36,997 nucleotides of DNA, taken from Pirellulales bacterium. GTDB taxonomy: Bacteria > Planctomycetota > Planctomycetia > Pirellulales > Thermoguttaceae. The position numbers were made by a program, and so were the translations under genes. A model generated the notes under the pieces. It was given only the letters and a program-made list of their open reading frames with translations, was not told where the DNA came from and did not search any database. This document shows positions 19,355-32,423 of the stretch, piece by piece (within the stretch, counting starts at the first letter, position 1; each line of letters opens with the position of its first letter). The stretch lies in the NCBI GenBank assembly GCA_016935315.1, contig JAFGRD010000087.1, forward strand, positions 1 through 36,997, read 5' to 3'.

Positions 19355-20782
19355 ATGGCACGTGAGAACCAGGGTCTGCAAATCGCGCTGATCGTTTTCG
19401 TCATGCTCACGATTATCCTGGGCGTGACGACGTTCATCTTCTACGGGCAATACAACGAGGCGCAAACCAAGGCAACCACGGCCGAGAAGAGCGCCGCCGA
19501 CCAAAGGGCGGCCGCCAGCGCTATCGCCGGGGAGTGCATGGAACTGAAGCGGGAGATCGGCGTTGCCGAGACCGAGAAGTTGGAGGACTACAGCGCGCAG
19601 TTCAAGCAGACCATGGCCGAGTTCGGCGGCAACTTCCCCGAGGAAAACCGCTTCTATCGACCGCTGCTTGGATACTTGGCCCAGGCGATCCAGGACAAGG
19701 TCAACGAAAACGCGCTGTTGAAAGCGGAAGTCCAGAAGCTCAAGGACGAGTACGAGATTCGCGAAGCGGCCAAGGACACGCAGATCCAGCAGCTTCAGGC
19801 AGCGCTGAAGAAGGCCGAACAGGACCTGGCCGCTCAGATTGCCAAATTCGACACAGACCGGACACGCTTTACCAAGGATCAGGGCGACCTTCAGACCCAG
19901 TTGCAGGCGGCACGTAAGAAGGCCGCCGACGACCTGGCGTCCCTTCAGGTGAACGTTGACGAGACTCAGCAGAAGAACCAGTTGCTGACGACGCGGAATA
20001 GGCAGATGACTGATAGGCTGAAAGGCTTGGTCGAGGAGACTTTCGAGGTTGCCGATGGTGAAATCCGCTTCGTCAACCAGCGTAACGGGACGGCGTGGAT
20101 CAATCTGGGCCGGGCCGATTCGCTGGCGCGCCAGACCACCTTCGCCGTCTATCCCATGGACACGACCAACCTGGCCAAGGGCGTCAAGAAGGGTTCGATT
20201 GAAGTGACGCAGATTCTCGGCGAGCACTTGGCCGAAGTCCGGGTCCTAGAAGATGAGATCTCCGACCCGATCATGCCCGGCGACAAGATCCACACGCCCG
20301 TCTGGACGCCCGGCGAACGGAAGCGATTCGCCCTGACCGGCTTCATGGATATCGACGACGACGGCAAGAGCGACCTGCAGACCATCCGCAACCTGATCAC
20401 GATGCACGGAGGCGTGATCGATTGCGAGACGGATGACACCGGAAAGCGGCGCGGTGAGATGACGATCAGCACTCGATACCTGGTGCTTGGTGAGACGCTG
20501 GACGCTCGGGGCGGCGAGGAGATGGTCGCGGCTTCCACCGCCATGATTCGCGAGGCAGAGCAACTCGGGATTCAGAAGATTCCGCTTCGCGACCTGCTGC
20601 AGCGGATGGGCTGGAAGAACCAAACGCCGGTGGTCCAGTTTGGTCGGGGCGCCAATCCCGAGAACTTCCGAGCCAGGGCGCCCGAAGGCGGGCCCAAGGT
20701 CTCCAGCGGCACCGTGTCGGGGCTTTTCCAGCCGCGCCAGGCGCCGCCGCGCCGGGGCGACCGAAGTGGCGGGGCCTACTGA
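19355..20782 (+). CDS. Membrane-anchored coiled-coil protein with possible BRCT-like domain
   Basis: The 475-residue protein has one transmembrane helix (about 8-30) after a short charged N terminus, then a long Ala/Glu/Lys/Gln-rich coiled coil (about 32-225). Next is a beta-rich segment (about 228-320) with WINLGRADSLARQTTFAVY and PIMPGDKIHTPV, similar in pattern to small SH3-like barrels. Residues about 323-375 (FALTGFMDIDDDGKSDLQTIRNLITMHGGVID, then TRYLVLGE) resemble a BRCT domain in spacing of the Gly-Gly and TxYLV elements; this is my pattern reading, unverified. AAGGAG (19340-19345) supports the start. It resembles planctomycete proteins of unknown function. The tail is Arg/Gly/Pro-rich. 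Its last seven bases overlap the convergent gene. Confidence 0.8.
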   Translation: MARENQGLQIALIVFVMLTIILGVTTFIFYGQYNEAQTKATTAEKSAADQRAAASAIAGECMELKREIGVAETEKLEDYSAQFKQTMAEFGGNFPEENRFYRPLLGYLAQAIQDKVNENALLKAEVQKLKDEYEIREAAKDTQIQQLQAALKKAEQDLAAQIAKFDTDRTRFTKDQGDLQTQLQAARKKAADDLASLQVNVDETQQKNQLLTTRNRQMTDRLKGLVEETFEVADGEIRFVNQRNGTAWINLGRADSLARQTTFAVYPMDTTNLAKGVKKGSIEVTQILGEHLAEVRVLEDEISDPIMPGDKIHTPVWTPGERKRFALTGFMDIDDDGKSDLQTIRNLITMHGGVIDCETDDTGKRRGEMTISTRYLVLGETLDARGGEEMVAASTAMIREAEQLGIQKIPLRDLLQRMGWKNQTPVVQFGRGANPENFRARAPEGGPKVSSGTVSGLFQPRQAPPRRGDRSGGAY

Positions 20783-21342
20783 TCGCTCGTGCGCAGCTCC
20801 GTGTTCGGCCCCGTTTGACCCGTCCAGGGCGGGATGTCGAGTGTCGGGCTGATCGGGGGCGGCGAAAGCGGCGTGGCGGGCCGTTGCTGGTCGGGCTCCT
20901 GCTTCTGAGGGTCGGCAAATAAAACGCGCCGCAGGCGGTCGAGTTCCGCCGCATACAGCCGCCACGCCGGGTCAAGTTGCATCGGATCGAATCGCTCCGG
21001 CTCCAGGAACAGCCGGGCCGGTTCGCGCAGCCGATGGAACCAGGCGACCCGCCACAGCAGCCGTTGCTGCGACCACCCCAAACGATGGGCCCGACACAGC
21101 GCAAGAAACAACGCGCCCGAGCTGAAATACGAGCCGCGACGCTCCAACTGCGCCAGCAGCCGATAGAGAAGCCACGCTGCTGCGATGATGCCCGCGAGGA
21201 TCAACAGCCCCGCCACGACGTCGCCCACGTCGATACGGGTGCGGCGCCCTTTGAATGGGCGGGCGAGATCGCCCAGGCGGCCTTGTTGGGCCAGCAGGAC
21301 GGCTCGACAGATCGTGTGGTTTATCCAGGTGATCTCAAACAT
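20776..21342 (-). CDS. Membrane protein coupled to the HEAT-repeat gene
   Basis: This 188-residue protein has one clear hydrophobic helix (about 41-62) followed by a helical cytoplasmic-like domain (SYFSSGALFLALCRAHRLGWSQQRLLWRVA), then a Pro-rich tail (about 150-188). I do not recognise the family with certainty. Its ATG lies inside the end of the upstream HEAT-repeat gene (eight-base overlap, 21335-21342), so translation is probably coupled and the products likely act together. Its 3' end overlaps the convergent coiled-coil gene by seven bases. Confidence 0.75.
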   Translation of the reverse strand: MFEITWINHTICRAVLLAQQGRLGDLARPFKGRRTRIDVGDVVAGLLILAGIIAAAWLLYRLLAQLERRGSYFSSGALFLALCRAHRLGWSQQRLLWRVAWFHRLREPARLFLEPERFDPMQLDPAWRLYAAELDRLRRVLFADPQKQEPDQQRPATPLSPPPISPTLDIPPWTGQTGPNTELRTSDQ

Positions 21343-22945
21343 TGGGCAGGGTATCGGATCGCGATCGGGGGGTCGAGCGCTGGTTGAGACTTTTCCGTGC
21401 CGTCGCTTGAACGGTCACACTGCTGTCGCGCAGCGCCCGCTCCAGGGCGAAGCGGCTGGCCCGGGACGAGCTTTGGGCTAAAGCCTCCGCCGCTTCCATG
21501 CGAACCAGGGCATCCTCGTCCCCCAGCAATCCGATGATCGCGTCGTCGAGCTGCTGGACGACCTCGATCATGCGGGCAATGGCCAGACCCCGGAGCCGCC
21601 GCGTACGCATGGCAGACTCGAGCTCTTCACGAAGCAGAGGCAGCGTGTGCGGGTCGATCTTCTTGACCAGCATGCCCGTACTGCGACGCACGTCGTCGTC
21701 CAACATGTCGAACGCGCCGAGGTATCGGCGAAAGGTAAACTCTTCCAGGGCGTCTCGCACGGCGTTGCGGACCGCGTCGTGCGGGATATCGGCCATCTTC
21801 ACCAGACGCGGCAGCACGCCGGGGATTCCGCGACGTCGCAGGTGCGCCAACACATTGGCCTGGACTTGCGGATCCGGGTCGTCCAGCGCACTCATCGCCA
21901 GATGGTTTGCCTCGGCGCCGCTGAATTCGGCCAACGCGACTGCCGCTTCTCGGCGTCCGCCAGGTTTGCCGCGGACCAACAGGTATTTCACGAAGAGGAA
22001 CGCTTCCTGGCGCGGCACGGACGACAGCATGACCAATCGAACCGCCCCATGCTGAGCGTCGTCGTCGAGCTGATCCAGAACCTCCTCCGGGCGGCTCAGC
22101 CACGCGATCGAACGAATTCGCTTGAAAACACGTTTGACGGCGGTGGAGGGCTCGTGGCCGGTCTTGCGCAGCAGCAAGGCGACGAATTTCGGGTCCGCAC
22201 GTTTCCCGAGTACCGAGACGATGGCGGAAGGGATGTGTGGATCGTTGAGAAAGCTGAGCACCAGTCGCATCACGCCGGCGCGGGTGCTGTTGGCCAGGGC
22301 ATCGACCATCGCGACGAATGCCGCGTGATGCGGATCGTGAAGGACCTGCTTCAACGTGCCGTTGTCCCGCCGGGCCAACAGTGCAAACGCCTCAACGACT
22401 TCCCGCCGACGGTGCCGTACGAACTGGGCGACCGACGTTTCGAGGCTGCTGACGATGTGTTGCTGCACCAATTGAGGATCCCGTCGCTGCTGCTCGTCGC
22501 GAGGGCAAGTCACCTCGGCGTACAGCTGATCGGTCAACTCGAGGATGGTCTCCGCCACCACGTCGGCACTGTTGCGGTCGAGATCGCCCAGAGCGCTCAG
22601 CAGCGTGGGAATCAGGTCGTACTCGCGAAACCAGACCGCCGCCCGACAGGCGTTGAGAAACAGTTGTCGGTCGTTGCCCAGGACGGCGTCGCGAAGCGCC
22701 CGCGTCATTCGAACATGATGTTGCCGGATGATTTCGATCCAGCGTTCGGGCATTGTGTGCAGGCGGAGGAGGATTTGCCGACCACCCGAGCGACTCCGCC
22801 GGGCCAGCAGCGCAATCAGTGCCCGATCTTGGATGGACTCGTGGGGGGAATCCAGCGCAGCCAGCAACACGCGACCGGCCGCTCGACTGGCCGTGTTGGT
22901 CAACACCCGAAACGTGGTTGCCAGACCTTCGCTCGCGCCGCGCAT
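21335..22945 (-). CDS. HEAT-repeat protein
   Basis: The 536-residue product consists of repeated pairs of helices with the HEAT/PBS lyase-like pattern: SALGDLDRNSADVV, SALDDPDPQVQANVLAHLRRRG, GLLGDEDALVRMEAAEAL and ALRDSSVTVQATARKSL recur at roughly 30-40 residue intervals. Such proteins are scaffolds with no catalytic residues of their own. There is no signal peptide, so it is cytoplasmic. GGGGA precedes the start at 22945. The eight-base overlap with the following membrane protein gene suggests a two-protein unit at the inner membrane. Confidence 0.85.
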   Translation of the reverse strand: MRGASEGLATTFRVLTNTASRAAGRVLLAALDSPHESIQDRALIALLARRSRSGGRQILLRLHTMPERWIEIIRQHHVRMTRALRDAVLGNDRQLFLNACRAAVWFREYDLIPTLLSALGDLDRNSADVVAETILELTDQLYAEVTCPRDEQQRRDPQLVQQHIVSSLETSVAQFVRHRRREVVEAFALLARRDNGTLKQVLHDPHHAAFVAMVDALANSTRAGVMRLVLSFLNDPHIPSAIVSVLGKRADPKFVALLLRKTGHEPSTAVKRVFKRIRSIAWLSRPEEVLDQLDDDAQHGAVRLVMLSSVPRQEAFLFVKYLLVRGKPGGRREAAVALAEFSGAEANHLAMSALDDPDPQVQANVLAHLRRRGIPGVLPRLVKMADIPHDAVRNAVRDALEEFTFRRYLGAFDMLDDDVRRSTGMLVKKIDPHTLPLLREELESAMRTRRLRGLAIARMIEVVQQLDDAIIGLLGDEDALVRMEAAEALAQSSSRASRFALERALRDSSVTVQATARKSLNQRSTPRSRSDTLPNV

Positions 22946-24358: not shown

Positions 24359-27300
24359 CTATTTGTCGGCACCGCGAAAACAGATCAAGCTCCCGTCCTC
24401 CAGCGACAGCAGCAGGCCGGCGTCGGAGGCGATCATCCCGTCGAACACGGGCGGCGCGTCCAGGTCCCGCTCGGCGACCTGCTCTCCGTTGACGGCTGAA
24501 AACACGGCCAGGCGGCCGCCGCGACGGCCTTCGAAGGCGGCGTACGGATCGTTCGCGTCGTATACGTCGGGCGGTCCCGCCACGAACAATCGATCGCCCG
24601 CCTTGACCATGCTGCGGACACGGATCGGCGTCCACGTGGCCCAGAGCGGCGGCTCGGCGCGTGTGTAGCCGATCATCTTGTCCAGCCCGAACGCCGGGCT
24701 GTCGAGCGTCCGCAAGGGGGTTCCGATCCGCCGCACATAGTCCGACTGCGGGAGCCACCGCACCGGCGGCCTGGCCCCTTCCTCGCCGACGATCTGCGGC
24801 TCGGTCGTGTTGTTGTCGGCAAACAACAGGTAGCCCTCCTTGCCGGGGAAGAACATCGGACTGTGCACGTTGCGGCGATAGAAGTACTTCACGGCGAACG
24901 TCTGCTGCTCGTCGAAAACGAGCAACTGGCCGCTCTTTGGCGCCTGGTTGGCCAGCTGAAAGCCGGGCCAGCGGGCGCCGTACACCCAAAACGTGCGGTT
25001 GTAGCCGGAGCCATCGAGCAGCCCGGCCGTCGAGAAGACGTGCCGTCCGACGTCCATCTCGCCCTTGCTCGACAGCACCGGCATCACCACCTCTTCCAGC
25101 GCGGGGGTGAGTTTCTTCTGTCGCATGTAGAGGAAGCCGCCTTCCGCTACGAGGACGTCGGAGTTGGCGCCCAAGGTGTAGAACGAGACCTCACGTTCGC
25201 CCATGTCTTCGGGAAACGGTCCCTCGAGGATTGTGCGATGGCGAATCGCTCCGGTAAGAGGGTCCAAGCCGTAGACGTGAATGCCGCCGTCGAGATAGGT
25301 CGAACGCCCTGCCGCGCAATAGGCGACGCCGTCGACCACCAGCACGTTGCCGTGTACGGGCCAGACCGATTCGAGCTGGTCGAAGACCCCGATTCGACGA
25401 TCGGCCGGCGCGGCGGTCAGACGCCAAACCATCGCTCCGTCCGAAGCCCTCAGGCAATACACGCGGCCGTCGTTCGAGCCAAACAGCACCAGACCGCGCC
25501 AGACGGTCGGCGGCGAATCGATGCGGCCATCGGCCGTGAACTGCCAGAGCGGTGAGCCGGTTTTCACCTCCAAGGCGTGAACCGTGTGGGTGTCACTATC
25601 AGCCACCAACACGCGACCGTCGGCCACCACCGGCTGGGTAAGCTTCCCGCCCAACTCGACACGCCATGAGGCGGTAACGCCGGCCGGCACGGCGATCGGC
25701 GTCGTGCCACTGCGAGCGGCGTCGTGGCGGAAGGTCGGCCAATCGCCGGGTATGGTGTCGGGACCCGCGGGCCGGACCTGCCCGTACACCGGGCCCTTCA
25801 GCAGCCGCGATTCGTCGGGAATCGGCTCCAGCGGTGCTTCCGCCTTCACGGCCGCAAAGCCGAGAATCTTCGAGCCCGGATGGCAGAAGCACTGATCGGG
25901 TGGCACGTAGAGCATGCCGTTGGCCGGAAGGATTCCGTAGCGGCACGCCCCGCGAAGCCAATTGTTCTGTGAATGGTCGTCCTTTTGAAGATCGACGAAC
26001 TCGATGCCTTCCATCCCGGTCATCAGGTAGCGCTCCGTGGCCTTGTTCCGATAACAGCGGTGATGGTGTTCCGGGCTGCGCAATTCGCGGGCGATCACCT
26101 CCCGCTTCTGCTCGCCCGTGCGAAGATCAAGCCCCAAGGCCATCACATCCGCGCTCTTTCCGCCGATCTTGGGCCGACCCCGCGCGTCGGTCTCCGAAGC
26201 GATCGACGCCACGCCACGCCACACCAGGCCATCGGCCACGAACAAATCGGCACTCTCTGCTCCGCCGATGCGATAGGTCGATTTCTGCCACAGCAGGGAA
26301 CCATCGTCCAGATCGTAGGCCACCAACGTGTTTCCGCCCGAGATAACGGCAACCCCGTCGACGGCCACCATGGTCGCGCCGCCGCCTCTGCTTCGCGCGG
26401 TTCGCCAGAGTTCTTCCCCTGTCCGAAGCTTGCGGCAGACCAGCTCGCGCGACGTCTCGTACACGATCCGCCCGCTGTCAATCGCCAGGAAGAGAGGCTG
26501 AATGGGAGCGACTTCCTGCCCCCAGAGCACTTGGCCGGAATCGCCGTCTACGGCGACAAGCCGGCCGGCGCCTGGCTGCGGCGTGCCCCGTCGCTTTGCC
26601 GCCTCGGATGGAGGCTGCTGGATGTAGGCCAGCGCGATTTCGTCCTGGACGAGGATTTCCCGCGTGTGCTCGGTGTTCGCGGCCACGTGCACCGTCTTGC
26701 CCGTGGCGGCGTCGAGAATAGAAAGCGGTTGACGATGGCCGAGCGTGACGAAAAGCCGGTCGCCGTCGACAACCAGCCGGCGTTGGTTCTCAGCGGGCAC
26801 GTCGACGCGCGCCGCCCGCAGCGTCGTCCAGTCCTTGCCCTCGTAGCGACTCCGGCTCCACTGCCGCCAACCCCAGTCGGGCAGCGGTCGTTTCCACAGC
26901 AGTTTTCCGTTGAAGGCGTCCCGACAGACGAGCGACCAGCGATCGGGCAACCGCTCGTCGGTGATGCCGACCAGCCCCTCGTCGAAGAAGTAGAAGATAC
27001 GGCCACCGCCACAGACGGAGGCCTGGACACCGGAGGGCGTCTCGTGGCTCCGCAGCCACAACGGCGAGGCAAGCCACTGGAGCCGGCGCGGGGGACCGAC
27101 CACCTTGTCGTGTGCGACCGCATTGTTCGACGGGTCATGCAGGAAGTGCGTCCACTCGTCGATGTCTTCCGGCCTCGGCTTCACGTGCTTTGTCCAACCG
27201 CCCTCCTGCCGGACGTAGGCTACGCCGTCGGGAACCAGCACTCGCATCATCTCCTCCAGCGACACCGGGCCGGGCTCTTCCGCCACGACGAGGTTCGCCA

Positions 27301-27634
27301 GATTGTCGACGTAGGGAAGCGTCGCCCCTGCCATGTGTTCGATGGACACGGGTCCGTAAAGGCCCCGCAATCGAATCGACTCTCTCGCCGGCTCGACGGC
27401 CGCCGGATCGGTCTGAAGACCGTGGACAGTGTATCGCTCGTCGGCACGCAACGCCGCCGTCAGCCGGCCGTCACCGCAGCCGAGGTGGACGATGATCCCG
27501 CCTTCAACGCCGGTTGACTCAAGCAGCGTCTCGGCAGAAATGGTCACTTCTCCCGACGCGGCGGCGTGTGTCGGTACGCCGGCCGGCGTCAGCAGTCCGA
27601 GTAGCACGAGACATCCGACCCTCGTGTGGCACAT
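24359..27634 (-). CDS. Exported methyltransferase-fold and PQQ-type beta-propeller fusion
   Basis: This 1091-residue protein starts with a signal peptide (MCHTRVGCLVLLGLLTPAG, cleavage near 24). Residues about 35-150 have a class I S-adenosylmethionine methyltransferase layout: motif I VHLGCGDGRL (49-58), VHGLQTDPAAVE (70-81), LPYVDNLANLVVAE (106-119) and EMMRVLVPDG (128-137). The linker DIDEWTHFLHDPSNNAVAHD leads into a long PQQ-like propeller (about 180-1091), with repeats such as LVAYDLDDGSLLWQ, VDGDSGQVLWGQ, ALEVKTGSPLWQF and CLRASDGAMVWRL. There is no CxxCH heme site. GGGAG seven bases before 27634 fixes the start. It lies 46 bases after the ThuA gene. Whether the exported methyltransferase part binds any cofactor outside the cytoplasm is open. 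Confidence 0.88.
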   Translation of the reverse strand: MCHTRVGCLVLLGLLTPAGVPTHAAASGEVTISAETLLESTGVEGGIIVHLGCGDGRLTAALRADERYTVHGLQTDPAAVEPARESIRLRGLYGPVSIEHMAGATLPYVDNLANLVVAEEPGPVSLEEMMRVLVPDGVAYVRQEGGWTKHVKPRPEDIDEWTHFLHDPSNNAVAHDKVVGPPRRLQWLASPLWLRSHETPSGVQASVCGGGRIFYFFDEGLVGITDERLPDRWSLVCRDAFNGKLLWKRPLPDWGWRQWSRSRYEGKDWTTLRAARVDVPAENQRRLVVDGDRLFVTLGHRQPLSILDAATGKTVHVAANTEHTREILVQDEIALAYIQQPPSEAAKRRGTPQPGAGRLVAVDGDSGQVLWGQEVAPIQPLFLAIDSGRIVYETSRELVCRKLRTGEELWRTARSRGGGATMVAVDGVAVISGGNTLVAYDLDDGSLLWQKSTYRIGGAESADLFVADGLVWRGVASIASETDARGRPKIGGKSADVMALGLDLRTGEQKREVIARELRSPEHHHRCYRNKATERYLMTGMEGIEFVDLQKDDHSQNNWLRGACRYGILPANGMLYVPPDQCFCHPGSKILGFAAVKAEAPLEPIPDESRLLKGPVYGQVRPAGPDTIPGDWPTFRHDAARSGTTPIAVPAGVTASWRVELGGKLTQPVVADGRVLVADSDTHTVHALEVKTGSPLWQFTADGRIDSPPTVWRGLVLFGSNDGRVYCLRASDGAMVWRLTAAPADRRIGVFDQLESVWPVHGNVLVVDGVAYCAAGRSTYLDGGIHVYGLDPLTGAIRHRTILEGPFPEDMGEREVSFYTLGANSDVLVAEGGFLYMRQKKLTPALEEVVMPVLSSKGEMDVGRHVFSTAGLLDGSGYNRTFWVYGARWPGFQLANQAPKSGQLLVFDEQQTFAVKYFYRRNVHSPMFFPGKEGYLLFADNNTTEPQIVGEEGARPPVRWLPQSDYVRRIGTPLRTLDSPAFGLDKMIGYTRAEPPLWATWTPIRVRSMVKAGDRLFVAGPPDVYDANDPYAAFEGRRGGRLAVFSAVNGEQVAERDLDAPPVFDGMIASDAGLLLSLEDGSLICFRGADK

Positions 27635-27680: not shown

Positions 27681-28613
27681 TCACCTGGGCTCGACGGGCG
27701 CATCGAGGTCGCCCGCCGCAAACTGGATCGCGTCGAGGTAGAACTCCAGAATCGCAGGGTTCCACCAGACCTCGGTACGATGGCCGAACTCGCTGTAGAA
27801 CACGCGGCCCTTGCCGTACGATTTCACCCACGCCAGCGCATAGTCGTTGTCGGTACGTTTCAGCCAGGGGACGCCCATGTTGGTTGTCTTGGTGTCGATC
27901 GACAAGAGGACGCGGACTTTGTCGCGCGCGTAGGGGGCAAGATACTGGAAAACCTCTTCGGCGATGCGAAAGTCCTTGCCACCGAAAACCCTCAACAGCG
28001 GATGGTCGGGCTCGTCGAGCTTCACACCGATTTCTTCGTTCCACGGGTGGCCGCCGCAACTCGCACCGAGGAGTCGCTCCAACTCGGGCCAGTGCCGGGC
28101 TGCGCCGATGGAATAATGGTAAGCGACCACACCGCCGCCGGCTCGAACCCACTCGAGGAAGCCTTTGCGAAGCTGCTTTTCGATGTCGTCTTTGTCTGCT
28201 CCGTATTTGGCGAATCTCGGCATCGCCTGGTCCGTCGGCGTGGTCCACGGCCCGCAACTGTTGTTCATCACGAAAACGTCGAACTGCCTGATCTGTTCGG
28301 GCAGCAACAGCGACTGGTCGTCACTGACGACGGCCTCGAATGCGCCCGTCTTCTCGCCAAGCGTTCTGATGGCAAAAGCCCCCTGGGGAATCGTGTATCC
28401 CTTGTGCGGCGATTGCTCCATGTAGGGCGTGTTCCAAATCAGCACGCGGCGTGGCTGCCGGGGGACTGCCCGGGCCTTGGCGGGGGCCGCCTCGCGAATC
28501 CGCTTGGCCTGATCGGGCGTCAGGTCGCCTCGCGCCGCTGCCGCAAAGACGGCAAGGAACGCTACCGCGCGCCATACGGCCGGAAGAACGATCGATGTGG
28601 TTTGTCGATGCAC
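27681..28613 (-). CDS. ThuA-like secreted protein
   Basis: The 310-residue product has a signal peptide (about 1-29) and a class I glutamine amidotransferase-like ThuA fold: RRVLIWNTPYMEQSPHKGY, FDVFVMNNSCGPW, GGGVVAYHYSIGAARHWPE (about 159-177), GGHPWNEE, GKGRVFYSEFGHRTEVW. ThuA proteins are linked to trehalose and other sugar catabolism, and in planctomycetes often accompany glycan-degrading enzymes and oxidoreductases. Translation starts at GTG 28613, preceded by AAAGGGAGG eight bases upstream; the ATG nearer that site is in another frame. It is followed after 46 bases by the methyltransferase-propeller gene, making a two-gene unit. Confidence 0.9.
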   Translation of the reverse strand: MHRQTTSIVLPAVWRAVAFLAVFAAAARGDLTPDQAKRIREAAPAKARAVPRQPRRVLIWNTPYMEQSPHKGYTIPQGAFAIRTLGEKTGAFEAVVSDDQSLLLPEQIRQFDVFVMNNSCGPWTTPTDQAMPRFAKYGADKDDIEKQLRKGFLEWVRAGGGVVAYHYSIGAARHWPELERLLGASCGGHPWNEEIGVKLDEPDHPLLRVFGGKDFRIAEEVFQYLAPYARDKVRVLLSIDTKTTNMGVPWLKRTDNDYALAWVKSYGKGRVFYSEFGHRTEVWWNPAILEFYLDAIQFAAGDLDAPVEPR

Positions 28614-28871: not shown

Positions 28872-30932
28872 TCACGGCGCCGCCCCGGCGCGAAAGGTGA
28901 AACCATAGGCAGCCGTCGGTTCGGGCCCTTTCCATGCAAAGGTGATCCGCTGCAACCGCGGTCCCCACGCTTCTCGCAGATTGTCGTCTTCAACCGGAAC
29001 GGCCTGGACCGTCGCGGTCATCCGCTCGGCGTCGTAGGTCAAGAGCAACGGTCGCGGGGCGCAGCCGATCTGGAGCGTGCCGGGCCGCTCGGTCTTGACC
29101 GGCCGAGCGGCGTACATCGAAATCTGCACGTGCGCGGGGCCACGGGCCAGCCCGAGCGTATCGCGAACCGCCAGATGCGGGTCCACGCCGCGATCGAACT
29201 CAAACTCCCTTCGCAGCGAGCGGATACCGGCACTCTCGGGATAGGCCTGCTCAAGATTCATACCCAGATGCAGCACCGAATCCCGCTCCTGAAACTCCAC
29301 GTTCGTCGCCCGATACTGCCGACCGGCATGTTGCTCCACACCGTCGACCACCGGTGCATTATGTCCCAGCCCACGGGTAAACCAGAGATCGTAACGCTGG
29401 CTGCTGAACGTCTTTCGCGTGTAGGTCTCTCGCCCAACGTCGATGATCCCCGGTTGCCCGTCCAGGAACAGGATGAAGTGTCCCAGATCGTTGTGGTTGT
29501 GGCTCTCCGCGTTGTGTCCGCCCTTGGCCGCCAGCACAAGCCCATGTCCGGGCTCCGGCGACTGTCTTGCGAAGAGCACCTGGAGATCCTCGAGCCACAC
29601 GACGGTTTCACGAGGAAGCGATCGGGGTCGGGCGTCGACAGGGATCCAGAATAGCTCCATCAAGGGTCCCAGGACACTGCGGCTGACGCCCGAGGTGCGA
29701 ATGGGCGGATCCACCGGCCCGTCGGTGCGCCAGTCGCGCATCGACAACAGGGCCAGGTCCTTCATTGCATCGGATCCGACGCGGTCGCCATAGCGGTAGA
29801 CCTTACCAGGGTGAGGGCGAGTCTGGGGGTCCGCATCGGCGAAGTTGGCGAACCAGGGGCCGTCCATGTGGGCATACGTGATGAAGCGCCCCATGGCTGC
29901 GATTTTCGGATGCTCGTAGAGATCGATCGCCCCGTCGGTCCGGGACCGCAACAGCTCGAGAAACACGAGCATCGCGCCACCCGCCTCACTCCAATACCCG
30001 GGGCCTTCGTCACATCCACCGTCTTCGCCGTAACCGTCGATGAACCGATCGACCACCTGCATGAGCCGGAACGTAACGTCTGCCAGCCGCTGCGGGTCTT
30101 CTTCCAGATACATGGCGGCCCCCATCACGTTGGAGGCGCACCAGGGCGACCAATTGTTGTGCCCATTCGTCCATCCCGAGTTGCCGAACCTCTCTCCGGT
30201 AGCATAAGGCTCGATAATGCGACGCCCGACTTCCTCGCGAATCCGCTCGCAGAGCGTGGGCGAGATCCCATCGAGCTCCTCGCGGAGCAGATAGTGAACC
30301 TGCGCCAGGCTCATGCCCGTCTCACACGCGAACAGATCGAGCCCTTCGACGTCCAGTCGATGCAGCACGTCTCCGCTGCGGCGGCTCGCATGGGCAGGAA
30401 GGCACCAGGTCGACTCCTCGCAGATGGTCCAGATTCCGTTAGCGATTTCGTCGAGGAAACGTCCGCGGTGCTCCAGGCACTCCGTCAGCGCCAGCGTACT
30501 CAAGTTCTCGCGGCGCCGGAAGTACGGAGCCTGGTAGTGCGACCGATTCCCCGTCCGCGCGTACTCCATGTACAACGTCGCCGGCAGAACCGGCCACGGC
30601 TTTCCCAGAAGCGCCTCGGCCCGCTCGGCCAGGTAGGCCTTTCGTGCCCGGTGAAGCGGCGCGGTCTGGATCGCGTCCCAGGCCTCGCGGTCACGGGCGG
30701 GCGGAAAGGGCTTCCACTGATCGCGATCGACCATTTGCTCCAGAAGGAACTCACGGTCGTGCCCGGTGGTGAGCAGCCGCGTTTTCGCAAGATCCGTGGT
30801 GGTCGGCGACTCCGCCGCTCGGGCGGCCGTCGTGCTTCCCAGGACGAGCAGCGCGATTGCGGCGGGCGTGCCGATACTCCAACAAGACAGAACCCGGCTG
30901 TCCATCCGGCTTCTTGCATAACTGCTTGGCAT
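28872..30932 (-). CDS. Heparinase II/III family polysaccharide lyase
   Basis: The 686-residue protein has a signal peptide (about 10-40), an alpha-helical barrel in the N-terminal two thirds (WTNGHNNWSPWCASNVMGAA, YGEDGGCDEGPGYWSEAGGA) and a C-terminal beta-sandwich with ESHNHNDLGHFILFLDGQPGIIDVG (about 472-496). This is the heparinase II/III signature, in which the HNHND stretch provides His and Asp for metal binding and catalysis. Such lyases cleave uronic-acid glycosidic bonds by beta-elimination; the substrate (heparan-like, alginate, other) cannot be read here. The start at 30932 has AAAGGGA seven bases upstream. It is 87 bases after the glycosidase-like gene on the same strand. Confidence 0.93.
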   Translation of the reverse strand: MPSSYARSRMDSRVLSCWSIGTPAAIALLVLGSTTAARAAESPTTTDLAKTRLLTTGHDREFLLEQMVDRDQWKPFPPARDREAWDAIQTAPLHRARKAYLAERAEALLGKPWPVLPATLYMEYARTGNRSHYQAPYFRRRENLSTLALTECLEHRGRFLDEIANGIWTICEESTWCLPAHASRRSGDVLHRLDVEGLDLFACETGMSLAQVHYLLREELDGISPTLCERIREEVGRRIIEPYATGERFGNSGWTNGHNNWSPWCASNVMGAAMYLEEDPQRLADVTFRLMQVVDRFIDGYGEDGGCDEGPGYWSEAGGAMLVFLELLRSRTDGAIDLYEHPKIAAMGRFITYAHMDGPWFANFADADPQTRPHPGKVYRYGDRVGSDAMKDLALLSMRDWRTDGPVDPPIRTSGVSRSVLGPLMELFWIPVDARPRSLPRETVVWLEDLQVLFARQSPEPGHGLVLAAKGGHNAESHNHNDLGHFILFLDGQPGIIDVGRETYTRKTFSSQRYDLWFTRGLGHNAPVVDGVEQHAGRQYRATNVEFQERDSVLHLGMNLEQAYPESAGIRSLRREFEFDRGVDPHLAVRDTLGLARGPAHVQISMYAARPVKTERPGTLQIGCAPRPLLLTYDAERMTATVQAVPVEDDNLREAWGPRLQRITFAWKGPEPTAAYGFTFRAGAAP

Positions 30933-31019: not shown

Positions 31020-32249
31020 TCAGCGGATCTTGTACAGGTGTACGTCGTACGGGCCGAAATCGTCGGCAAACTGTCCGTCGGCTACCGGAATACTCCGATC
31101 CTCGTCGACCACTTCGGCCGTGGCGCGGGCCGGCAAGTCTCGCAGGCGGAAGGTCGCCTTGGCCGGTTCACCCTCCATGCGAACGGTGAAAACGTAAGTG
31201 GCGCCCTCGTTGCGTTTCACCATGGCGGCGACCGGCTCGGGGCCGAGCAGCTCGGACCGCCGAGGCGAGACGTCGGCCGGCTCGGCCGTAACGGTCACGG
31301 CACCGTCGACGGTGGGACCGTTGAGCACACGGGCCAGACTGTGGATCCGGCGATTGATCGCTCCGACCGCCGCGGACATCTGTGGGTCGGCAAGCAGGCC
31401 CGCCTCGATGAACTGCGGCTGGAACTGGTGGCTGAAGTAAATCAGCCCGCGGGAGCCGTGAATCAATGCCATCCAGACTTCCGCCTTGACTTGCACGGGC
31501 GTCGGCTTGGTGTTCGGATTGCTGATGCGCGTGCATTCGATGCAGTTCCAAACGGGCTTCTCGTCGCGCGTCCACTGCCGCAACCGTTTGACACCGCGAG
31601 GAACGTACCAGAGTTTGCCTGCCACGGCGGCACGTTCGCTGACCGCCGGATAGATGTCGAACGAAGCCACGTCGCACCCGCGCGCATACTCCGCATAATC
31701 CTCGGGATGATTGGTCCGCACGCCCCGTCCGATCCAGCCGTCCCAGGCAACGCCTTGGCCCAGGTTCAGCATCACCGGCCGCGAAGGATCGGCGGCCTTG
31801 ATGGCCCGATAGTCGGCAATGATCTTCTGCGGCGGAACCGGCGGGCCGTAGCCCTTGCCGCTCCCGAGAGATTGGGCGTTGTCGGGCTCGTCACCGTGCA
31901 TCCAGCCGACCATGGTCTTGTCGTCGAGATGCCGCAGTGCATACTCGTTCTGTGCACAGATGACGGGCATGCCGTGCCGTTTCAGTTCGGCAAGCTGCTG
32001 CTCGGTCGGCCCCTGCCACAAGCCCACATAGAGATTGATTCCGATCGCCTGGTATTTCGGGGCGTTTCGTGGCGACTGAAGCCAGACCGCGATCGGGAAG
32101 TAGTCGGCGCCGGCCCCGGGGCCGTTTTCCCAAGCGGAATAGGGGCTTTGCTCTGCATGCACCGACGTTGCCCCACTTAGCAGCACGATCGCGGACAAGA
32201 CGGACACCGCGGCGGCGAATTGACTTCCTCCGCACCTTTGAACTCGCAT
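31020..32249 (-). CDS. Secreted TIM-barrel glycosidase-like protein
   Basis: The 409-residue product has a signal peptide (about 1-33). The mature part begins YFPIAVWLQSPRNAPKYQAIGINLYVG, then MVGWMHGDEPDNAQ, CDVASFDIYPAV, PVWNCIECTRISNPN and LIHGSRGLIYFSHQF, the pattern of a beta/alpha barrel hydrolase related to GH42/beta-galactosidase-type folds. Candidate acids are Glu in HGDEPD and Glu in NCIECT, at positions that fit strand 4 and strand 7 ends. A small C-terminal beta domain follows. GGAGG eight bases upstream fixes the start at 32249. It opens the minus-strand group that continues with the heparinase. Family number is not assigned. Confidence 0.8.
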   Translation of the reverse strand: MRVQRCGGSQFAAAVSVLSAIVLLSGATSVHAEQSPYSAWENGPGAGADYFPIAVWLQSPRNAPKYQAIGINLYVGLWQGPTEQQLAELKRHGMPVICAQNEYALRHLDDKTMVGWMHGDEPDNAQSLGSGKGYGPPVPPQKIIADYRAIKAADPSRPVMLNLGQGVAWDGWIGRGVRTNHPEDYAEYARGCDVASFDIYPAVSERAAVAGKLWYVPRGVKRLRQWTRDEKPVWNCIECTRISNPNTKPTPVQVKAEVWMALIHGSRGLIYFSHQFQPQFIEAGLLADPQMSAAVGAINRRIHSLARVLNGPTVDGAVTVTAEPADVSPRRSELLGPEPVAAMVKRNEGATYVFTVRMEGEPAKATFRLRDLPARATAEVVDEDRSIPVADGQFADDFGPYDVHLYKIR

Positions 32250-32423
32250 TGAGACAACCTCCGACCCGGAATTCCCGACGTATTGGTTTTCCTTCCAAAG
32301 CAACTTCCGTACAAAACGACTCCGCGGAGAATATCTCGCTACGGAGCCTCTCTGTATAGAAGAGTGGAGCGTATCAGAGACGGAATGTCAAGAAACGGGC
32401 CGTTTGCAGACGGCGCACGCATG

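Follow-up and report, generated by a model that had tools for sequence, protein, structure and literature searches.

A methyltransferase-type domain joined to two propellers in a predicted exported protein family of Planctomycetota and other phyla

Class I methyltransferase folds are regarded as cytosolic, their cofactor S-adenosylmethionine (SAM) being both made and held in the cytosol. The locus described here raises the question of what such a fold may be doing in a protein that appears to be exported. Within the window, i.e. the whole 36,997-nucleotide stretch of DNA that was analysed (contig JAFGRD010000087.1, assembly GCA_016935315.1, from a Pirellulales bacterium), a single gene encodes 1091 residues comprising a signal peptide, a methyltransferase-type (MT) domain and two propellers (Table 1). 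The reading favoured here, with confidence a little better than even, is that the MT domain was recruited as a Rossmann module that does not methylate and that serves, in an exported two-propeller protein, in recognition or assembly beyond the cytoplasm. That reading is built on computed evidence, namely the predicted fold, the signal peptides of the family, a class of relatives with permuted domain order, the altered cofactor residues and acceptor side in relatives that share the window protein's order (class A), and the conservation of the individual domains.

Table 1. Features of the locus and of its upstream neighbours (coordinates in the window)
Feature	Coordinates	Strand	Basis
Gene for exported 1091-residue protein (P0001)	24359..27634	-	ORF, Pfam
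Putative signal peptide, about residues 1-26	27557..27634	-	Sequence; family heuristic
Truncated class I methyltransferase-type (MT) domain, residues 34-145	27200..27535	-	Pfam, AF2, Foldseek, VIA
Motif I HLGCGDG, residues 50-56, His replacing the usual Asp/Glu	27467..27487	-	
Residue 74, ribose-acid position, Gln in window copy	27413..27415	-	Asp/Glu in 63/74 class A copies
LPYVDNLANLVVAE, residues 106-119 (strand 4), followed by shortened loop	27278..27319	-	
Propeller 1, about residues 160-600	25835..27157	-	AF2; VIA Z about 22-23
HxRC (524-527) with C564, C582 and C584, in propeller 1	25883..26065	-	Class A alignment
Propeller 2, about residues 620-1091, BamB/PQQ_2-like	24362..25777	-	Pfam PQQ_2, VIA
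ThuA-family gene, upstream, ending 46 bases before the ATG	27681..28613	-	Pfam 104.8 bits (cut-off 33.4)
Heparinase II/III-like gene, upstream	28872..30932	-	Pfam 29.9 bits (cut-off 24)
Glycoside hydrolase-like gene, upstream	31020..32303	-	Pfam Glyco_hydro_42 17.2 bits, under cut-off 21

The gene lies on the minus strand, its ATG at 27634 and its stop at 24359 agreeing exactly with the extent first proposed, and the same interval read on the plus strand is interrupted by stops. GGGAG is found just 5' of the ATG, and the frame stays open beyond it as far as a TTG at 27721, within the 3' end of the ThuA gene. The N-terminus, MCHTRVGCLVLLGLLTPAGVPTHAAA, has the appearance of a Sec signal peptide. 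An in-house heuristic finds signal peptides in 67 of the 73 family members that could be evaluated (two of 75 rows have no start codon in range), as against 25 of 697 internal control stretches, and the claim of a signal peptide was in this way borne out. Were translation to begin after that peptide, the product would be a cytosolic protein with its MT domain free. From the end of the signal peptide to residue 60, codon 30 (GTG) is the only potential start (ATG, GTG or TTG), and initiation there is hardly credible, given that position 30 varies among relatives, that nearly all evaluable members have the signal peptide, and that in the permuted class the MT domain comes behind a propeller, where a later start cannot render it cytosolic. 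On their sequences, the permuted proteins, whose visible N-termini mostly resemble signal peptides by eye, carry the MT domain in the interior of a predicted exported chain. Export as originally predicted is thereby upheld, and the accompanying suggestion of a planctomycete compartment is not needed, as relatives are not confined to Planctomycetota: by record title they are found in Verrucomicrobiota, Lentisphaerota and Sumerlaeota, among others.

The class I methyltransferase fold itself is well supported. Pfam Methyltransf_25 scores 31.5 bits over residues 48-137 (cut-off 27) and Methyltransf_11 scores 28 bits (cut-off 21.2), the methyltransferase models above cut-off spanning about residues 48-140. 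An AlphaFold2 model of residues 27-1091, built with 66 sequences, has a pLDDT of 89.9 and a pTM of 0.92 (protein residue = model residue + 26). Fold searches with this full model were dominated by propellers and returned little on the MT domain, which was therefore modelled separately (residues 27-151, 59 sequences, pLDDT 95.2). The resulting 125-residue model begins with a helix, after which strands and helices alternate, with six strands in total. Its top Foldseek match is 3dlc (TMq 0.78, rmsd 1.9, 114 columns) and its top VIA-align match is 1xxl (Z 15.5, rmsd 2.0, 120 aligned), with the SAH-bound 3t7t and the SAM-bound 3t7s no more than 1 Z unit below the latter. The predicted structure thus has the Rossmann-like alpha/beta core that the original prediction required, and the three motifs on which that prediction was based (HLGCGDG, LPYVDNLANLVVAE and RVLVPDG, the last at residues 131-137) were all located. 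E128, R131, P135 and G137, the last being the Gly before strand 5, are present in 75 of 75 class A rows, and the Asp/Glu/Asn position opening strand 4 is N114 in 72 of 75. Because the aligned ranges reach the C-terminal part of the target structures, we infer that the last strand of the model would be canonical strand 7, strand 6 being missing.

The remainder of the protein had been described as a giant PQQ-type propeller. Propeller repeats do follow the MT domain, but they form two propellers rather than one. Propeller 1 (model residues about 128-574) matches propellers in VIA-align with Z of about 22-23, including the eight-bladed design Tako8. Propeller 2 (model residues about 593-1064) matches Rv3035 (Z 28.2), BamB (Z 25) and PQQ dehydrogenases (Z about 22-24), and Pfam PQQ_2 scores 110.1 bits. 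An identity as BamB was rejected despite the common fold (73.5 bits against a curated equivalog cut-off of 285.2), the present protein having two propellers and an MT domain, as was an identity as a PQQ-dependent alcohol dehydrogenase (37.6 bits against a curated cut-off of 480.05). The active site of PQQ-dependent dehydrogenases has an adjacent cysteine pair; no such pair occurs among the 13 cysteines of the window protein. Within propeller 1, H524, R526 and C527 are found in all 74 class A copies, and C564, C582 and C584 in 73 of 74, the other showing a gap. Six permuted proteins likewise have four invariant cysteines at similar spacing (C976, C1014, C1036 and C1038 in the first row). Judged from these alignments, the four cysteines are a mark of the family and may form two disulfides or a metal site.

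A single scan of GTDB contigs found relatives at 64 contig loci in eight phyla, with phylum read from the record title: 45 loci in Planctomycetota, six in Verrucomicrobiota, five in Lentisphaerota, two in Sumerlaeota, two without a phylum, and one each in Armatimonadota, Poribacteria, Kiritimatiellota and Bacteroidota, the last a fragment matching query residues 7-207. Nearly all of these records are metagenome-assembled genomes, and contamination could explain individual cases. The match runs from residue 50 or earlier to residue 1083 or later at 49 of the 64 loci, which indicates that the architecture is no accident. The fusion, the frequency of which in planctomycetes was a point raised at the outset, is sporadic: across 199 genomes from the same phylum as the window, matches at E <= 1e-150 were found in 15, counting the window's own genome. 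The class A set comprises 75 rows with the window protein (BLAST E <= 1e-30, query start at or before 60, end at or after 500), and counts out of 74 omit L004, the MT domain of which is degenerate. Alignment A1 holds the window protein and 65 sequences with a query end of at least 900; A2 holds the window protein and 58 of those 65, seven having been dropped by hand under no set rule. Class A falls into two clades, the main one about 52-65% identical to the window protein and the second one 35-44% identical. The window's own genome has two further class A copies, on contigs C78 and C42. Five more proteins of this genome (C170, C66, C105, C1 and C34) show the permuted order propeller 2-MT-propeller 1, with a malectin domain in three; a sixth (C74) has its domains ordered as in class A, its MT domain being degenerate. 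L060 holds another permuted copy. A search with six permuted sequences matched 29 of 199 genomes at E <= 1e-120, some over part of the model only. Among 20 loci fetched (L092 is the C34 copy; L105 and L109 are cut at a contig end), all except L107 had an MT match, and in all 19 of these that match was preceded by one to propeller 2 and followed by one to propeller 1. Two loci carry additional domains in frame upstream of the MT domain. At L039 (4699-9243) a BNR repeat domain forms part of a single 1515-residue open frame, either a fusion or an assembly artefact; at L070 (193-3000) the domain is a glycerophosphodiester phosphodiesterase, and the heuristic found no signal peptide immediately before the MT domain.

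Whether the MT domain can methylate turns on residues whose roles are taken from passages of PMC1282579, where the acid of strand 1 (motif I) is called exceptionally well conserved among methyltransferases and the acid ending strand 2, which contacts the ribose, partially conserved. Motif I had been judged well kept. This holds for GxGxG, retained in 62 of 74 class A copies including that of the window, but not for the strand-1 acid, a position that is never Asp or Glu in the 74 and is His in 69 (His50 here). The ribose acid, kept by most relatives (63/74), is Gln74 in the window copy; GxGxG and the ribose acid occur together in 59 of the 74. The acceptor side is also reduced: between strand 4 and the helix that follows there are about 5-6 residues fewer than in five aligned solved methyltransferases. 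At the position matched by eye to strand 3 of 3dlc, only 16 of 74 copies have an acid. A canonical class I methyltransferase has a seven-stranded sheet with a full acceptor region, neither of which was found in the six-stranded model with its short post-strand-4 loop. On the sequences and the model, methylation by the class A domain is unlikely, and by the window copy most of all, given the lost strand-1 acid, the short loop, the scarcity of the strand 3 acid, the missing strand and, in the window copy, Gln74. The permuted class may have a function other than that of class A. Some of its members (C1; L090, L103 and L111) have a canonical DLGCGDG, an acid ending strand 2 and a longer post-strand-4 loop, so that the change in motif I is not family-wide; in many others motif I is degraded (e.g. 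GSEEG in L094). These canonical copies, the Pfam scores above cut-off and the cofactor residues kept by most of class A are what can be said for a working SAM-dependent methyltransferase outside the cytoplasm, supplied by leaked SAM or with its missing acceptor site provided by a propeller. That proposal is nevertheless very improbable, as it has to contend with the changes to motif I, strand 3 and loop, with the cytosolic origin of SAM and, in the window copy, with the loss of the ribose acid as well.

If the domain does not methylate, it might be no more than a vestigial or purely structural cap that closes or stabilizes propeller 1, with neither ligand nor partner. Such a cap would account for the lost acid and reduced acceptor side of class A, for Gln74 and for the degraded motif I of many permuted copies, and in the main clade the MT domain is moreover less conserved than either propeller (mean pairwise identity 0.573, as against 0.621 and 0.677). 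In the second clade, however, it is the most conserved (0.528, as against 0.463 and 0.438); it is also retained in both domain orders, and the 59 class A copies with both GxGxG and the ribose acid exceed what a purely structural role needs. A mere cap is therefore rather unlikely, and a SAM-like ligand may be bound in class A. Together with the canonical permuted motifs, the retained residues speak for a kept ligand over mere decay, in line with the original argument that the domain is not simply decaying, which holds across relatives. The pocket could in that case have become a receptor for an extracellular ligand, the ribose side being kept in most copies and the His suiting an anionic group such as uronate, phosphate or sulfate; the domain would then sense its ligand or pass it to the attached propellers. 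In this specific form the idea is tentative and rather improbable. It is also conceivable, though doubtful, that the MT domain chiefly pairs paralogues into hetero-oligomers, copies in tandem arrays being kept alike there while their propellers diverge. Main- and second-clade copies occur together at 13 loci, on the same strand in 12 of them, and with one pair per locus the MT identity is 0.628 within loci and 0.591 between arrays (p 0.0004), compared with 0.392 and 0.389 for propeller 1 (p 0.12). An earlier comparison (0.626 vs 0.520, 16 pairs) gave a larger MT difference; the control restricted to loci with pairs is fairer, and the smaller difference is to be used. Of the 74 class A copies, 21 have their nearest MT domain in the other clade, and paralogues at L041 share 81% identity in the MT domain and 38% in propeller 1. 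Against pairing, the effect is modest, gene conversion is mechanically favoured too where DNA is most similar, a single main clade on the MT tree survived an AU test (p 0.057), and the class A paralogues of the window's genome sit on other contigs.

The same comparisons fit a history of recombination, or of gene conversion, with the MT domain at its centre. All five alignment segments within residues 33-175 show the same-locus excess (p <= 0.028, uncorrected), and outside that range only 421-480 and 601-660 fall below 0.05, with p near 0.03 (uncorrected); the propeller 1 tree splits the two class A clades with a FastTree support of 100. Exchange centred there may reflect a common partner, or merely greater DNA similarity. 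A mosaic gene was seen in L022 (130-3495) compared with L056 (5800-8520): by synonymous differences the MT domains are distant (pS 0.73) and the propellers nearly the same (pS 0.08 and 0.05). L041 (1-15156) is an array of five family copies, of which those at either end are cut or partial, and an IS200-like transposase separates two of the copies.

Under the favoured reading of a recruited, non-methylating module, the MT domain would serve recognition or assembly outside the cytoplasm. In most relatives a ribose-bearing or other small ligand may still occupy the old cofactor pocket, with His standing where the acid facing the methionine end of SAM would be; in the window copy, with Gln74, the ribose contact may be lost and a structural or docking role alone kept. 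Any chemistry or polymer binding would fall to the propellers, possibly for the breakdown of acidic or sulfated polysaccharides. The original prediction had entertained both another ligand and a recognition domain, and a conserved, remodelled fold in an exported protein is consistent with either: the domain may bind another ligand and possibly acts in recognition. Precedent is counted in favour of this reading, as non-catalytic methyltransferase relatives are known, namely mtTFB, Gcd10p and DNMT3L, which keep the fold without methylation and in some cases use it for docking (passages of PMC1282579). Counted against it are the 59 copies with intact GxGxG and ribose acid, the canonical permuted copies, the low MT conservation in the main clade and the unconserved neighbours.

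Compared with small class I SAM methyltransferases such as 3dlc, 1xxl (YcgJ) and 4pne (SpnF), the family shares the Rossmann core and the GxGxG, LPY-D-N and RVL-P-G elements, but differs in the His in place of the motif I acid, the short post-strand-4 loop, export and the propeller fusion, and the 125-residue model is small beside targets of mostly 170-350 residues. The SpnF entry is titled as a [4+2]-cyclase, so the same fold is capable of non-methylating functions. Reuse of methyltransferase folds without methylation is thus already known, and what stands out here is the location outside the cytoplasm. mtTFB, Gcd10p and DNMT3L are intracellular and act on nucleic acids, whereas the present family appears exported and largely keeps GxGxG. 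No description of the MT-double-propeller architecture was found among the papers listed by searches of a largely open-access literature, as judged from titles and the openings of abstracts, and 'PQQ' and 'propeller' are both absent from the main text of PMC8567305. A widespread exported family with a remodelled yet conserved cofactor site provides a setting in which use of this fold without SAM can be tested, and draws attention to the large exported proteins of Planctomycetota and neighbours. For annotators there is a caution, in that such proteins can exceed methyltransferase model cut-offs, as the window protein does.

The flanking genes, which the original prediction had looked to for clues, differ from locus to locus. 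No conserved flanking gene was found among the family loci in BLAST clusters over 67 sources with 71 same-strand neighbours (set A3 keeps 71 of the 93 ORFs listed, after removal by hand of alternative frames and of fragments of the family). Sulfatases are the two scanned members of a 14-member cluster represented in 10 of 67 sources, and another cluster, the one scanned member of which is a GFO/IDH/MocA oxidoreductase, is represented in five of 67; sulfatase models match at least six of the 71 neighbours. Sulfatases are common in Planctomycetota, and little was concluded about function from the neighbourhood. Participation in the degradation of acidic or sulfated polysaccharides is plausible, if tentative. 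The ThuA gene is presumably on the same transcript as the 1091-residue gene, and among the matches listed it is the only ThuA match in the 71 neighbours. Elsewhere in the window, 20779-22945 on the minus strand holds a gene for a HEAT-repeat protein and a small neighbour.
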